From contig JABDIV010000052.1 in NCBI GenBank assembly GCA_013003555.1, positions 124,001 to 188,000 of the forward strand: a DNA stretch of 64,000 bases, given 5' to 3'. Position numbers and translations under genes: made by a program. The first letter of the stretch is position 1, and each line of letters begins with the position of its first letter. Below, piece after piece: positions 46,805 through 51,862 of the stretch. The notes beneath the pieces are model-generated. The model ran no database searches. It saw only the letters and a list, made by a program, of their open reading frames with translations, and was not told where the DNA came from. The DNA is from Flavobacteriaceae bacterium. GTDB lineage: Bacteria; Bacteroidota; Bacteroidia; Flavobacteriales; Flavobacteriaceae.

Positions 46805-48043
46805 ATGGCTCAGATCATACCCTTTAAAGCGGTTCGGCCTACTCGGGATAAAGTGAGCCTTGTAGCTTCACGCTCGTATCAAACCTACACACAGGAGGAA
46901 AGAGATTCGAGGCTTGAGTATAATCCTTTTTCATTTCTTCATATCATCAATCCCGGCTACAAATATCATAAGGTACTTAAGGGTAAAGAACGTTATCAAA
47001 TGGTTCGTAATCGATACCTTGAATTTAAGGAGGATCATATTTTCGTTCAGGATGAAAAACCGGCCTATTATGTGTATAAGATCGTAAACCGTGAAAAAAT
47101 GGTTTTTAATGGAATTGTTGCAGCTGTAAGTGTTGATGACTATAAAAGCAATATCATTAAAAAGCATGAAGATACGATCGAATATCGGGAGCATACCTTC
47201 AAGGATTATCTCAATACGGTTGGATTTAATGCAGAACCGGTCTTATTGACCTATCCGGATAATGACGAATTAAAACACATAATCAGTGAAGTACAGAAAG
47301 TACGAGCAGAATTTGAATTCACGACGACCTTCAGGGACACACATTATTTATGGATTGTTGATGAACCAGAGGATGTCAATAAAATAAAAGGTGTTTTTGA
47401 ATCAATCGACACCATATATATTGCTGACGGGCACCACAGGTCATCCTCTTCCGTGCTATTGGCAGATGATTTAAGAAAGTCAAATCCCGATTTCACCGGT
47501 GATGAAGGATTTAATTTCTTTATGAGCTATCTGCTTCCGGAATCGGACCTGAGAATATTTGAATTCAACCGTTTGATAAAGGATCTAAACGGCCTTAGTA
47601 AAGACGATTTTTTAATGGCTATAGATCCGTTTTTCCGCATTGAAAACAGGGGAATAACCGTTTATCATCCATCAAAAAAACATCATTTCGGCATGTATTT
47701 AGATGGTGAATATTATTCTCTATACCTTCGGAAAAATCAATATAAAATCGAGTCATCTCTCGATGCGCTCGACACCCAAATTCTTCATAAAACCATTCTC
47801 GAACCAATCCTTGGGATAACCGACCCTCGGAATGATACCCGAATCGAATATACACATAGTAAAATGGGCATGGACCACGTTAAATCTCAAGTTGACTCCG
47901 GTACATTTAAAGTAGGTTTCGGTTTGCTGCCAACCTCAATTGAAGACATGAAAGCAATTGCTGACGAAGGTTACATCATGCCACCTAAAAGCACATTCAT
48001 TCTCCCTAAATTACGCAGTGGGGTAACCATATATGAATTCTAA
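46805..48043 (+). CDS. DUF1015 family protein
   Basis: A 412-residue protein of the DUF1015 (HAD-like, often serine kinase-related) family. Its ADGHHRSSSSVLLADDLR signature near residue 208 is the best conserved element, and the N-terminus has FKAVRPTRDKV, with SYQTYTQEER after it. Function not established, though the family has been linked to free-serine kinases in some bacteria. The stop codon abuts the ATG of the YggS gene (TAAATG). Confidence 0.8.
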   Translation: MAQIIPFKAVRPTRDKVSLVASRSYQTYTQEERDSRLEYNPFSFLHIINPGYKYHKVLKGKERYQMVRNRYLEFKEDHIFVQDEKPAYYVYKIVNREKMVFNGIVAAVSVDDYKSNIIKKHEDTIEYREHTFKDYLNTVGFNAEPVLLTYPDNDELKHIISEVQKVRAEFEFTTTFRDTHYLWIVDEPEDVNKIKGVFESIDTIYIADGHHRSSSSVLLADDLRKSNPDFTGDEGFNFFMSYLLPESDLRIFEFNRLIKDLNGLSKDDFLMAIDPFFRIENRGITVYHPSKKHHFGMYLDGEYYSLYLRKNQYKIESSLDALDTQILHKTILEPILGITDPRNDTRIEYTHSKMGMDHVKSQVDSGTFKVGFGLLPTSIEDMKAIADEGYIMPPKSTFILPKLRSGVTIYEF

Positions 48044-48706
48044 ATGGAGATTCGATCAAATCTAAATGTCATAGCGTCCACCCTGCCGGCACATGTGACC
48101 CTTGTTGCGGTTTCTAAAACGAAATCAATCGCTATGATCAATGAAGCATATGCGGCAGGGCACCGGGATTTCGGAGAAAATAAGGTGCAGGAAATGGTCG
48201 ATAAACACGATAAACTGCCCCAAGACATTCGATGGCATATGATCGGTCATGTGCAGCGAAATAAAGTTAAATATATGGCTCCTTTTGTGCATATGATACA
48301 TGGCGTTGACAGTTTTAAACTGCTGAAGGAAATCGACAAGCAAGCGTGTAAGCAAGACAGGATTATTTCGTGTTTGCTTCAGATAAAGATCGCTAAAGAG
48401 GATACAAAGTTTGGCATGTCGAAGGATGAAGCTCTTAAATTGTTGAAATCTGAGGAACTGGCCGATCTCAGGCATGTTCATATTAAAGGACTTATGGGTA
48501 TGGGCACATTTACTTCCGATCAGGCCGTTATTCGCGATGAATTCAGGTTTTTGAAGAATTGTGTCAGTACCTTTAAGCCATTGGAAAGGTCTAATTTGCA
48601 TTTTGATGTAATTTCAATGGGTATGAGCGCAGATTACCAACTGGCCATCGAAGAAGGCAGTACGATGATTAGGGTTGGAAGTAGTATATTTGGATCACGA
48701 CAATAA
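48044..48706 (+). CDS. YggS-family PLP homeostasis protein
   Basis: A 220-residue PLP-binding protein of the YggS/PROSC family, which controls vitamin B6 pools and has no known catalytic reaction. The cofactor lysine is in LVAVSKTKS, with EAYAAGHRDFGENKVQE, HMIGHVQRNK and the ISMGMSADYQLAIEEGSTMIRVGSSIFG closing block. It starts right after the DUF1015 stop and ends inside the region where the next gene must start. Its last codons therefore overlap the candidate start of the exonuclease/GIY-YIG gene. Confidence 0.94.
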   Translation: MEIRSNLNVIASTLPAHVTLVAVSKTKSIAMINEAYAAGHRDFGENKVQEMVDKHDKLPQDIRWHMIGHVQRNKVKYMAPFVHMIHGVDSFKLLKEIDKQACKQDRIISCLLQIKIAKEDTKFGMSKDEALKLLKSEELADLRHVHIKGLMGMGTFTSDQAVIRDEFRFLKNCVSTFKPLERSNLHFDVISMGMSADYQLAIEEGSTMIRVGSSIFGSRQ

Positions 48707-48717
48707 AAATAATAGCC

Positions 48718-50100
48718 ATTTACGCGATTTTAGACATAGAAACAACCGGTGGAAAGTATAATGAGGAAGGCATTACCGAGATCGCTATTTACAGATATGA
48801 TGGCCATAAAATTGTCGACCAATTCATTTCTCTGGTAAATCCCGAGCGCGATATTCAACCATTTGTTGTAAACCTCACCGGAATCAATAGTAACATGTTG
48901 AGAAACGCACCCAAATTCTATGAGGTTGCCAAGCGTATCGTAGAGATAACTCAGGGTTGTATTCTGGTAGCGCATAATGCCAAATTCGACTATCGTGTTC
49001 TGAGAACGGAATTTAAACGCCTTGGATTCGATTTTGAAACACAGACGCTTTGTACCGTCGAATTAGCGAAACGTTTAATTCCCGGCCACACCTCCTATAG
49101 TTTAGGTAAGATTACAAGAGCTTTAGGCATTCCGGTAAGTGACAGACATCGTGCTGCAGGTGATGCAACAGCTACGGTTAAGTTATTTTCAATGCTATTG
49201 GCAAAGGATACCGAAAAATCTATCATTCAGGAATCCATTCGAATGGAACCCAAATATCAATTGGAACCAAGGCTTATCGATATCATTGAAGACTTGCCTT
49301 CTGTGACAGGGGTGTATTATATGCATAAAGAAGATGGTGAGATCATCTATATCGGAAAAAGCAAGAATATAAAGAAACGCGTCAATCAACATTTTACTTC
49401 TGAATCTCCCAAGTCTAAAAAAATCCAACTCCAGGTCGCGGCCGTAACCTTTGAAAAAACCGGAAGCGAGCTTGTCGCCCTCCTTAAGGAAAGCGAAGAG
49501 ATAAAACGAAACAAGCCGATTTTTAACCGCGCACAGCGACGGACCATCTTTACACATGGCTTGTTTGAATTCACCGACAATAACGGATACCTGAATTTAA
49601 AGATCGCGAAGGTTGCTAAGAAGGAAAAACCGATAACCACATTTGCTAATCTGCAGAGTGCAAGGAGTTTTATGAATCGTTTAACCGAAGAAGAACAACT
49701 TTGTCAAAAATTAACTGGCTTATATAAAACCAGCAGCAATTGCTTTAATTATACGATCAAACAATGCCAGGGTGCTTGTATTGAAGAAGAACATTTTGAA
49801 ACCTACAATAAGCGCGTTAGAAAGATCATTAATCATTACAGCTTCACACAGGCGGATATGGTTATCATCGATCGTGGTCGGGAAATTGATGAACGCAGTG
49901 CCATCTTGATAGAAAACGGAATCTATCGCGGCTTCGGATTTTATAATTTGAATTATCAGATTAATAATTTCGAAGTATTACAGTCGATAATCACCCCTAT
50001 GCAACATAACCGTGATACTCAACATATTATTCAAAGCTATATGCGCAGGAATACGAGATTGAAAGTGATGAAGTTGAACAATGTAGGTGAGGATAAATAA
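48718..50100 (+). CDS. DEDDh exonuclease / GIY-YIG endonuclease fusion, AUU-like start
   Basis: A 460-residue two-domain nuclease, counted from ATT at 48718. Residues 1-160 are a DnaQ-like exonuclease: Asp6 and Glu8 (DIETTG), Asp91 (AHNAKFD), His144 and Asp149 (HRAAGD) make a complete DEDDh set. A linker leads to a UvrC-type GIY-YIG domain: G-V-Y at 198-200, Y-I-G at 211-213, an Arg in the KKRVNQHF helix and a later Glu. No ATG, GTG or TTG exists between the in-frame stop at 48682-48684 and ATG 48895, which would drop Asp6 and Glu8. ATT at 48718 gives the usual M-Y-A-I-L-D opening if initiated with Met; ATA at 48703 is an alternative. It starts about 11 bases after the yggS stop, so coupled reinitiation is plausible. 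Role unknown; likely DNA repair. Confidence 0.82.
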   Translation: MYAILDIETTGGKYNEEGITEIAIYRYDGHKIVDQFISLVNPERDIQPFVVNLTGINSNMLRNAPKFYEVAKRIVEITQGCILVAHNAKFDYRVLRTEFKRLGFDFETQTLCTVELAKRLIPGHTSYSLGKITRALGIPVSDRHRAAGDATATVKLFSMLLAKDTEKSIIQESIRMEPKYQLEPRLIDIIEDLPSVTGVYYMHKEDGEIIYIGKSKNIKKRVNQHFTSESPKSKKIQLQVAAVTFEKTGSELVALLKESEEIKRNKPIFNRAQRRTIFTHGLFEFTDNNGYLNLKIAKVAKKEKPITTFANLQSARSFMNRLTEEEQLCQKLTGLYKTSSNCFNYTIKQCQGACIEEEHFETYNKRVRKIINHYSFTQADMVIIDRGREIDERSAILIENGIYRGFGFYNLNYQINNFEVLQSIITPMQHNRDTQHIIQSYMRRNTRLKVMKLNNVGEDK

Positions 50101-50118: not shown

Positions 50119-50955
50119 ATGATGAGTTCCCCGAAACCTCGAAAGAATTGGCGTGTTAAACTTCATGAGATCATTTATGAAGCCGACACTCCCATTGGAC
50201 ATTGGTTTGATATCATTTTATTGATCGCTATTTTGGCCAGTATCATCTTAGTGATGTTGGAAAGCATTCCGGCAATCGATGAGAAATACCATGCTGTTCT
50301 TAATATTGGCGAGTGGATAATTACCATTCTCTTCAGCTTAGAATACATTGCCAGGATAATATCGGTCAAGCAGCCCAGAAAGTACATATTCAGTTTTTTC
50401 GGGATCATCGATTTGCTTTCGACTATACCGAAATACCTGTCCCTTATCCTGGTTGGATCACAATCCCTGGTTGCTTTGAGAGCGCTTCGGCTATTAAGGA
50501 TTTTCAGGATTCTGAAACTTGCCAGGTATATCGGTGCCACTACCAACCTGATGAGAGCTATTGCCATAAGTCGGGCTAAGATCCTGGTATTCCTTTTCTT
50601 CGTCCTTATTATTTGTGTGATTTTAGGCACGGTAATGTACCTTGTTGAAAGTGATGAAAACAGCGGGTTTACCAGTATTCCGAGAAGTGTTTACTGGGCC
50701 ATTGTAACACTTACTACAGTAGGATATGGCGATATTGCACCGGCAACGGCTTTGGGACAATTCCTGGCTTCTATGATCATGATTCTGGGTTATTCTATAA
50801 TTGCCATCCCTACGGGTATCGTCTCGGCCGAAATGACGAAATCACAACGAGATAAAATTCCAACCAATACGCAATCCTGCGTCCACTGCCTCAAATCGAA
50901 TCATAAAGATAACGCAGAGTATTGTTATAATTGCGGTAATCGACTTCATGATTAA
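50119..50955 (+). CDS. Voltage-gated-type potassium channel with a C-terminal zinc ribbon
   Basis: A 278-residue inner-membrane ion channel. Six hydrophobic helices are visible; the S4-like helix is rich in Arg (LRALRLLRIFRILKLARY) and the selectivity filter is T-T-V-G-Y-G-D (residues 199-205), the K+ signature. The last 25 residues contain two C-x2-C pairs (CVHC and CYNC), a short zinc-ribbon tail in the cytoplasm. Two adjacent ATG codons can start it. Its 3' end overlaps miaA by eight bases. What the zinc ribbon binds is unknown. Confidence 0.9.
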   Translation: MMSSPKPRKNWRVKLHEIIYEADTPIGHWFDIILLIAILASIILVMLESIPAIDEKYHAVLNIGEWIITILFSLEYIARIISVKQPRKYIFSFFGIIDLLSTIPKYLSLILVGSQSLVALRALRLLRIFRILKLARYIGATTNLMRAIAISRAKILVFLFFVLIICVILGTVMYLVESDENSGFTSIPRSVYWAIVTLTTVGYGDIAPATALGQFLASMIMILGYSIIAIPTGIVSAEMTKSQRDKIPTNTQSCVHCLKSNHKDNAEYCYNCGNRLHD

Positions 50956-51862
50956 TCACCTGATTTCAATTATTGGTCCGACAGCCATAGGTAAGACATC
51001 TCTTAGCATTTCTGTCGCGAAATATTTTGATGCTGAAATCATTTCGGCCGACTCCAGGCAATTCTACAAAGAGATGCGCATCGGTACTGCTGTGCCGAGT
51101 AAGGCTGAGTTGGATGCTGTAAAACATCATTTTATTCAACATAAATCCGTTTTAGAACCTTATAGTGTGGGGCAATTTGAACGTGATGCCCTGGTCAAAC
51201 TGGAAGAGCTATTTTCTAAGCATCCAATAGCAGTTATGGTTGGCGGATCAGGCCTTTATCTTAAAGCTGTGACAGCGGGATTGAATGAATTCCCCGATGT
51301 CGACCCTACAGTCAGATCGAAGTTGAATGAAAAATGGCAATCTGAAGGATTAGACAGCCTTCAAAAACAGCTCAAAACGTTAGATCCTAAAACGTACGAG
51401 CAAATTGCTGTCGACAATCCTCATCGTGTTATCAGGGCGTTAGAAATCTGCATCGGAACCGGAAAACCTTATTCAAGTTTTTTAAAAACAGAAATTAAGT
51501 CGCGGCCCTTCAGGACTTTAACCATCGGTTTAACGGCTGAACGTCAACTTATTTATGATCGCATCAATGAACGCGTTGATATGATGATGAACCAGGGTTT
51601 ATTGCAGGAAGCCAAGGCTTTACACCCATTTAAAGCGTACAATGCTCTTAACACTGTTGGCTATAAAGAACTATTTGCTTTCCTTGAAAACAGCTGCGAT
51701 TTAAGTGAGGCTGTATCTGAGATCAAAAAAAATACGCGACGCTTCGCCAAGCGACAATTGACCTGGTTTAATAAAGATGATTCCATCAAATGGTTTGATT
51801 TTGATGAACCTTTTGAAAACATTGTTGATTATTTAGAAAATGAAATAAAAAAGCCGGCATGA
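50948..51862 (+). CDS. miaA: tRNA dimethylallyltransferase
   Basis: A 304-residue enzyme adding a dimethylallyl group to A37 of tRNAs reading UNN codons. The P-loop GPTAIGKTS is at residues 10-18, ISADSRQFY follows at about 34-42, then VMVGGSGLYLKAVTAG and the QLTWFNKD C-terminal motif. The start overlaps the channel gene by eight bases. The last residues (KKPA) and the stop lie inside the left arm of the palindromic terminator at 51847-51878. Confidence 0.95.
   Translation: MINHLISIIGPTAIGKTSLSISVAKYFDAEIISADSRQFYKEMRIGTAVPSKAELDAVKHHFIQHKSVLEPYSVGQFERDALVKLEELFSKHPIAVMVGGSGLYLKAVTAGLNEFPDVDPTVRSKLNEKWQSEGLDSLQKQLKTLDPKTYEQIAVDNPHRVIRALEICIGTGKPYSSFLKTEIKSRPFRTLTIGLTAERQLIYDRINERVDMMMNQGLLQEAKALHPFKAYNALNTVGYKELFAFLENSCDLSEAVSEIKKNTRRFAKRQLTWFNKDDSIKWFDFDEPFENIVDYLENEIKKPA

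Follow-up and report, generated by a model that had tools for sequence, protein, structure and literature searches.

The window, a 64,000-nucleotide stretch of DNA from a Flavobacteriaceae bacterium, contains a gene (48718..50100, forward strand) that joins a DEDDh 3'-5' exonuclease to a Cho-type GIY-YIG endonuclease in a 460-residue protein, begins at an ATT codon and ends at TAA. The fusion architecture itself is already known and belongs to the 'Cho plus exonuclease' type, reported in 2006 (PMC1564403). What is new, as read from aligned sequences, is a start that avoids AUG and a one-sided decay of the nicking site. The gene is best explained as a Flavobacteriales-specific paralogue, here called clade A, of the exonuclease-plus-Cho nucleases, and we put at roughly two in three the probability that it encodes a repair protein centred on its exonuclease, with translation kept weak on purpose.

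In such a protein, the N-terminal DEDDh domain would remove nucleotides in the 3' to 5' direction, and the Cho-like part (GIY-YIG domain, cysteines and C-terminal domain) would position the enzyme on damaged or abnormal DNA. Where the nicking site is intact, as in the window protein, a nick could also be placed beside the abnormal DNA. Expression would be kept low at initiation by AUU (AUC, AUA or UUG in relatives) in place of AUG, either because an unregulated exonuclease would be harmful or because few copies would be enough. The AUU, AUC and AUA members would additionally be sensitive to initiation factor IF3.

Domain architecture and family distribution

The exonuclease domain spans residues 4-157 (48727..49188, forward strand) and is identified by a Pfam RNase_T match (E 4.1e-34), by conservation and by structural similarity. 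The GIY-YIG domain spans residues 198-267 (49309..49518, forward strand; Pfam E 4.3e-9) and matches E. coli Cho by profile and UvrC crystal structures by sequence. The window protein has every one of the residues that we take to be catalytic: D6, E8, D91, H144 and D149 of the DEDDh set and Y200, Y211, R221, E258 and N270 of the GIY-YIG set (N270 lies just past the Pfam domain). The initial annotation, which had read 48718-50100 as a fusion of these two nucleases with both active sites complete, is thereby borne out. Four cysteines further along form the motif C329-x12-C342-x7-C350-x3-C354 (49702..49779, forward strand), which resembles that of UvrC and Cho: all four align with cysteines of Cho, and the x7 and x3 spacings recur in the UvrC of the same genome. 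In UvrC, these cysteines have an iron–sulphur role.

The last 87 residues (374-460; 49837..50097, forward strand) form a C-terminal domain with a predicted beta3-alpha2-beta arrangement, in which G387, R388 and E392 are nearly invariant and for which no Pfam family was matched. The strand order hinted at a degenerate UvrC RNase H domain, a candidate that we rejected because no convincing structural match emerged. The isolated domain model (mean pLDDT 77.8) reached a best E of 0.22 in Foldseek and a best Z of 3.6 in VIA-align; such poor matches of a predicted structure are no proof of a new fold. For the whole protein, an AlphaFold2 model built on an alignment of 63 relatives has a mean pLDDT of 90 and a pTM of 0.64, a modest value that gives little confidence in how the domains are placed relative to each other. 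The best structure match of the exonuclease domain is the exonuclease of S. aureus DinG (Z 24.3, rmsd 2.0, 171 aligned residues), and full-length fold searches returned, among the matches listed, exonucleases throughout.

Two other assignments were considered and set aside. The protein is a poor candidate for a replicative proofreader of the pol III epsilon type, scoring 77.0 bits against the TIGR01406 cut-off of 222.7. The DnaE of the same genome (L005:1378-3444) has a DnaQ-like exonuclease domain at its N terminus, before the PHP domain; with an exonuclease of its own in DnaE, the fusion protein is not needed as a proofreader. A defence system is likewise not indicated. Six PADLOC matches cover only the exonuclease (PDC-S48 twice and a Cas-associated DEDDh) or a short GIY-YIG piece (UzuA, and PDC-S14 twice), and the neighbourhood is one of housekeeping genes.

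Such fusions had been described in the initial annotation as known in other phyla. Relatives turn out to be nearly universal in the gene's own family and to occur through the class. Matches at E 1e-30 are present in 147 of 149 family genomes, and in 124 of the 124 of good quality, a count that merges clade A with a wider paralogous group, here called group B. Several genomes (for example G002, G003 and G025) have only the paralogue as best match, at about 42-45% identity. Across the phylum, 174 of 296 genomes contain a match. A 117-protein tree, obtained by a quick search and containing several long branches, places clade A (79 rows, Flavobacteriales, SH-aLRT 100) apart from 34 other Bacteroidia rows (group B) and four outgroup rows. 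Of group B, 29 rows form one clade, and L062, L118 and L104-L106 join without resolution. The counts for both groups leave aside L002-L006 (other genes), L119 (a 180-residue match) and L120-L123 (other classes).

The window gene lies between a PLP-homeostasis gene and an ion channel gene, and far from uvrB and uvrC, as had been noted at the outset: yggS (48044..48706, TIGR00044, ATG start) is immediately upstream, the ion channel gene (50119..50955, domain search) is downstream, and uvrC and uvrB are on other contigs. A DUF1015 protein gene (46805..48043, domain search) precedes yggS and miaA (50948..51862, profile search) follows the ion channel, all on the forward strand. This arrangement is conserved in clade A: yggS precedes the fusion gene in 72 of 79 loci, and miaA and the ion channel gene follow it in 59/79 and 56/79, some loci being too short to show them. 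DUF1015 is upstream in 36/79, and here many loci are too short. None of the 34 group B loci has yggS, miaA or the ion channel gene as a neighbour. The conserved clade A neighbourhood marks an old gene inherited vertically, as opposed to a stray fusion.

The start codon and its avoidance of AUG

The reading frame is open from 48685, and no ATG, GTG or TTG occurs between the upstream stop and the catalytic Asp6. The first in-frame ATG is at residue 60 (48895..48897, forward strand, from the ORF list), and a rule that admits only ATG, GTG or TTG yields an ORF at 48895-50100 of 401 residues without D6 and E8, an evident risk for annotation. The coordinate 48718 in the initial annotation is that of the ATT codon; this start, the most unusual feature of the gene, went unremarked there.

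The position of the start was located by a coding-signature test on 54 clade A loci (those among L001 and L007-L061 that exceed 400 residues) and on every locus of a set formed by the nearest 80 of 293 named relatives. In the 63 genes with ATT, ATC or ATA at the aligned start (20 from clade A and 43 named, the two sets sharing some genomes), the ten codons before the start differ equally at codon positions 1-3 (0.637, 0.627 and 0.628), and codons 2-13 show a protein-like pattern (0.114, 0.008 and 0.414). At codon 1 (48718..48720, forward strand), the values over all 134 sequences are 0.513, 0.0 and 0.584: the central T is invariant, and the first and third bases vary. Protein-like conservation begins exactly at ATT 48718, which at the level of sequence comparison identifies this codon as the start.

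We regard it as very improbable that translation begins elsewhere, at another near-cognate codon upstream or at ATG 48895. In-frame alternatives are present (ATT at 48688, and ATA codons between 48703 and 48714), and six of the 43 ATT/ATC/ATA genes in the named set offer an ordinary start earlier in the open frame, where the other 37 have none. However, constraint at the protein level covers residues 2-59 and is absent from the bases before 48718, several relatives have a stop codon just 1-4 codons before the start, and initiation at ATG 48895 would sacrifice D6 and E8.

Near relatives of the window gene rarely use AUG. The named set starts with TTG (35), ATT (31), ATC (11), ATA (1), GTG (1) and ATG (1); clade A (n=79) has TTG 31, ATG 26, ATT 17, ATC 3, GTG 1 and ATA 1, the last being L093, which has a TTG one codon earlier and was hand-scored as TTG for the tree. 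The two sets overlap and share some genomes (e.g. L007 and L131), and relatives in these counts are not independent. In 20 of the 79 clade A genes, the start is ATT or ATC and there is no ATG, GTG or TTG in the upstream open frame or in codons 2-12. A non-AUG start is thus kept across species without an alternative start, although 26/79 clade A genes use ATG. The ATT/ATC genes also occur in named strains of Olleya, Hyunsoonleella, Bizionia and Tamlana, with ATT in Olleya aquimaris DSM 24464 and Bizionia paragorgiae DSM 23842, which excludes an artefact of metagenome bins. In group B, each of the 34 loci offers an ordinary start, either at the aligned position or before it. Among titles and abstract openings of mostly freely readable papers, we found none that deals with initiation of this gene at a non-AUG codon.

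Neighbouring genes served as controls. For yggS, the start is ATG in 74/74 scorable loci of the named set (three not scorable) and in 63 clade A loci, with one TTG (eight not scorable). AUG use in the fusion gene is accordingly depressed in both sets by Fisher tests whose counts ignore kinship: 1/80 versus 74/74 in the named set (6e-44) and 26/79 versus 63/64 in clade A (4e-18). For miaA, ATG was found in 31/31 scorable named loci (26 not scorable) and in 17 clade A loci, alongside one GTA and one CTT that are probably alignment end effects (40/59 not scorable). The start of the ion channel gene was mostly not scorable (47/56 clade A loci, 62/73 named loci). For DUF1015, TTG is the start in 28 of the 66 named loci that could be scored (ATG 36, GTG 2, one not scorable) and in one clade A locus beside nine with ATG (26/36 not scorable). 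Since DUF1015 often has TTG too, TTG alone is not special to the fusion gene; ATT, ATC and ATA are.

On a tree of 151 proteins (79 clade A and the 80 named relatives, minus eight identical), the start codon changes at least 37 times. Grouped into ATG, ATT/ATC/ATA and GTG/TTG, the classes change at least 32 times. The shortest reconstructions, as sampled, assign about 18 of these changes to direct steps between ATT/ATC/ATA and GTG/TTG and about 14 to steps involving ATG. Going from ATT to TTG takes two mutations, and the sole start codon that can serve as an intermediate is ATG. The direct changes, together with the single ATG among 80, point to selection against AUG and hence for weak initiation. 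The argument applies to at least that part of clade A to which the window gene belongs, and suggests that the cell keeps the nuclease scarce on purpose. The 26 clade A genes with ATG indicate that the weak start is not obligatory.

It is also conceivable, if doubtful in our view, that the codon drifts without selection and that initiation relies on the upstream context, namely an A-rich leader or coupling to yggS. Members of the phylum are described, in the part of the literature consulted, as lacking Shine-Dalgarno sequences in their mRNA (PMC6847099), and yggS ends close upstream in many loci (distances of -1 to 968 nt over 72 loci). Under drift, however, ATG would be expected often, not once in 80 genes; yggS and miaA retain it, though DUF1015 not always; and ATT or ATC starts also occur where no yggS end lies in the preceding 150 nt (L034 and L038, by eye). 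No unusual RNA structure was detected around the start codon (z +1.6). In several relatives (L011, L034, L045, L047, L140, L156), short tandem units (AACTTTT, ACTGAAT-like), seen by eye and differing between relatives, reach the start codon or stop just short of it.

The gene for IF3, infC, starts with AUU in E. coli, and in the family ATA is its start codon in 30 of 31 loci, the alignment of the 31st beginning at residue 5 (60 genomes searched, 59 with a match; two of the scored loci are from the window's own genome). These ATA codons (L124:837-839, L125, L210-L238) mostly follow GCC, and most of the genes have no ATG, GTG or TTG in their first 25 codons. The two infC genes of the window's genome bin, on contigs C101 and C9 (the window's contig), share 86% protein identity; the listed contamination of the bin is 5.07%, and a foreign origin of either contig is possible. 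According to the consulted part of a study in S. aureus (PMC13009471), infC starts there with AUA, two further genes, ccpN and cvfC1, have conserved non-AUG starts, and output from non-AUG codons, relative to AUG, is about 10% in poor medium and, in rich medium, reaches up to 30% for ccpN. A review (PMC4611024) states, in the portion consulted, that AUG, GUG and UUG escape the discrimination that IF3 exerts against other start codons. As UUG is tolerated on that account, control by IF3 could cover the AUU-type members only; and with TTG the commonest codon, sensing of IF3 would account for only part of the pattern. The factor shared by AUU-type and UUG members would be low output.

A wider proposal, which we advance tentatively and with the odds somewhat against it, is that across much of the family the start codon holds the exonuclease below a harmful level and that synthesis of the AUU, AUC and AUA members is tied to IF3, itself AUA-started. 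Were this true, the dosage of a repair nuclease would track the state of the translation machinery, and gene callers restricted to AUG, GUG and UUG would clip the catalytic N terminus and so hide the class. The series AUU, AUC, AUA, UUG, GUG and AUG in close relatives offers natural alleles for the control of nuclease dosage.

Unequal conservation of the two nuclease sites

All five exonuclease residues are intact in 79/79 clade A proteins. The GIY-YIG set is intact in 59/79, as are the four cysteines (59/79), and G387, R388 and E392 are intact in 76/79. In group B, the corresponding counts are 34/34, 34/34, 33/34 and 32/34. In some of the 20 incomplete GIY-YIG rows the sole departure is at Y211 (replaced by Phe or Asn) or at R221 (by Lys or Ser), and such members might still be active in nicking. 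At the other extreme, three rows from a sister family (L115-L117) have lost all five GIY-YIG residues and keep a remnant of the domain, the exonuclease and the C-terminal domain. An alignment in which catalytic residues were missing had been named at the outset as a counter-argument to the initial annotation: none is missing from the window protein, and across clade A it is the nicking site, never the exonuclease, that is incomplete. The picture of one exonuclease paired with one nicking domain is therefore right for the window genome, but the two are unequal partners across the clade.

The state of the nicking site changes at least seven times on the clade A tree, or five times if loss is taken to need two or more residues, with the lists of incomplete sites for this count entered by hand. 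That tree has an arbitrary root, and it is the comparison with group B that points to loss as the direction of change. The exonuclease has a mean pairwise identity of 77% in clade A and 58% in group B, the GIY-YIG domain one of 56% and 53%; as the two groups differ in age, only the contrast between domains counts in these figures. The best reading of this one-sided decay is that the exonuclease is the constant activity in clade A and that nicking is dispensable. Clade A would then be a natural experiment on which half of a Cho+Exo protein is needed, the nicking site having changed at least five to seven times and the exonuclease never in 79 proteins. Second copies, a conceivable compensation for a broken nicking site, were also counted by hand: at least 11/20 genomes with an incomplete nicking site and at least 20/59 with an intact one have two or more matches (Fisher p 0.12).

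A regulatory link to DNA damage was considered through the SOS response. A study of Bacteroidetes SOS regulons reports, in the part consulted, LexA-type motifs for a GIY-YIG exonuclease (PMC8565304). CTAA-N5-TTAG is absent from the whole 64-kb window and from -200 to +20 nt of the aligned start in all 79 clade A loci, and is present 39-56 nt before the aligned start in 3/34 group B loci (L109, L112 and L113), against a background of 0.4-0.6% of random stretches. The looser GGA-N5-TTC and GGA-N5-TCC are at background frequency or rarer in both groups, and a degenerate LexA-motif search of the window with three mismatches found 302 sites against 312 expected. With no CTAA-N5-TTAG upstream in any clade A locus, an SOS role for clade A finds no support. 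The motif in three group B loci and in none of clade A suggests that the report probably concerns the other paralogue, group B.

These observations bear on a different view of the protein, as a self-contained incision-excision enzyme of nucleotide excision repair, in which UvrB recruits the GIY-YIG domain, which cuts on the 3' side of a lesion, and the exonuclease then digests back through it, the two domains being equals. We consider it unlikely. It is consistent with the complete sites of the window protein, with its match to Cho over residues 184-377 and with the presence of uvrB and uvrC in the genome. It also has a precedent in print: the job of such fusions had been called unclear in the initial annotation, but for a mycobacterial cousin a function has been proposed, cited in the consulted part of the 2006 survey (PMC1564403), in which the GIY-YIG nick is the point from which the exonuclease digests the strand past the lesion. 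Equal domains are, however, difficult to reconcile with a nicking site that is incomplete in 20/79 clade A members, the three sister-family rows included, beside an intact exonuclease. Likewise, no UvrB-binding family (PF02151) was matched at E up to 0.1, an absence that is weak evidence, as the genome's own UvrC scores just E 6e-4, and the SOS motif is lacking throughout clade A.

Comparison with known fusions and known non-AUG genes

As far as its consulted sections go, the 2006 survey distinguishes 'Cho+Exo', 18 proteins of beta-proteobacteria with a Cho C-terminal domain, from 'Cho-like+Exo', 11 proteins of actinobacteria with a UvrB-binding domain (PMC1564403); a term search of its available text returned no Bacteroid-, Flavobacteri- or Cytophaga. 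The window protein resembles Cho+Exo in its N-terminal exonuclease, its UvrC/Cho-type GIY-YIG domain, its four cysteines and a short C-terminal domain of similar size. Proteobacterial Cho+Exo proteins on plasmid records (Acidithiobacillus, Caballeronia, Cupriavidus and Legionella) cover 79-88% of it, at about 27-33% identity, and clade A differs from them by its weak start and decaying nicking site.

E. coli Cho itself (295 residues) shares the GIY-YIG domain and the four cysteines, matching over 191 columns with 99.4% probability (hhalign), and lacks an exonuclease domain. Compared with a profile of nine Cho or Cho+Exo C-termini, the C-terminal domain gives E 0.023 and a probability of 2%, a score reached by 0/100 column shuffles in local mode and by 57/100 in global mode; against E. 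coli Cho alone the probability is 0.4%. The domain is possibly equivalent to that of Cho.

The order of domains is also that of the actinobacterial Cho-like+Exo proteins, to which, by our reading, the NCBIfam PRK07883 models (NF005903-NF005907) correspond. The best profile of this group spans both nuclease domains (residues 2-370, E 2.7e-82) and matches 63/63 alignment members, yet the best of the five models scores 276.9 bits against a cut-off of 495 and its positions 393-563 are unmatched. A literature search by titles and abstract openings found nothing on PRK07883 with GIY-YIG or DEDD exonuclease. The C-terminal RNase H-like endonuclease and HhH of UvrC are, by Pfam, absent from the fusion protein and present in the genome's UvrC.

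The closest parallels for the start codon are found in other kinds of gene. A non-AUG start of E. coli pcnB is named in a title cited by the S. aureus study (PMC13009471). In infC, ccpN and cvfC1 of S. aureus and in infC and pcnB of E. coli, as in the fusion gene, an AUU- or AUA-type start is kept across species. The fusion gene differs from these in encoding a predicted DNA nuclease, and in that AUU, AUC and UUG interchange among its members, with no single fixed codon.
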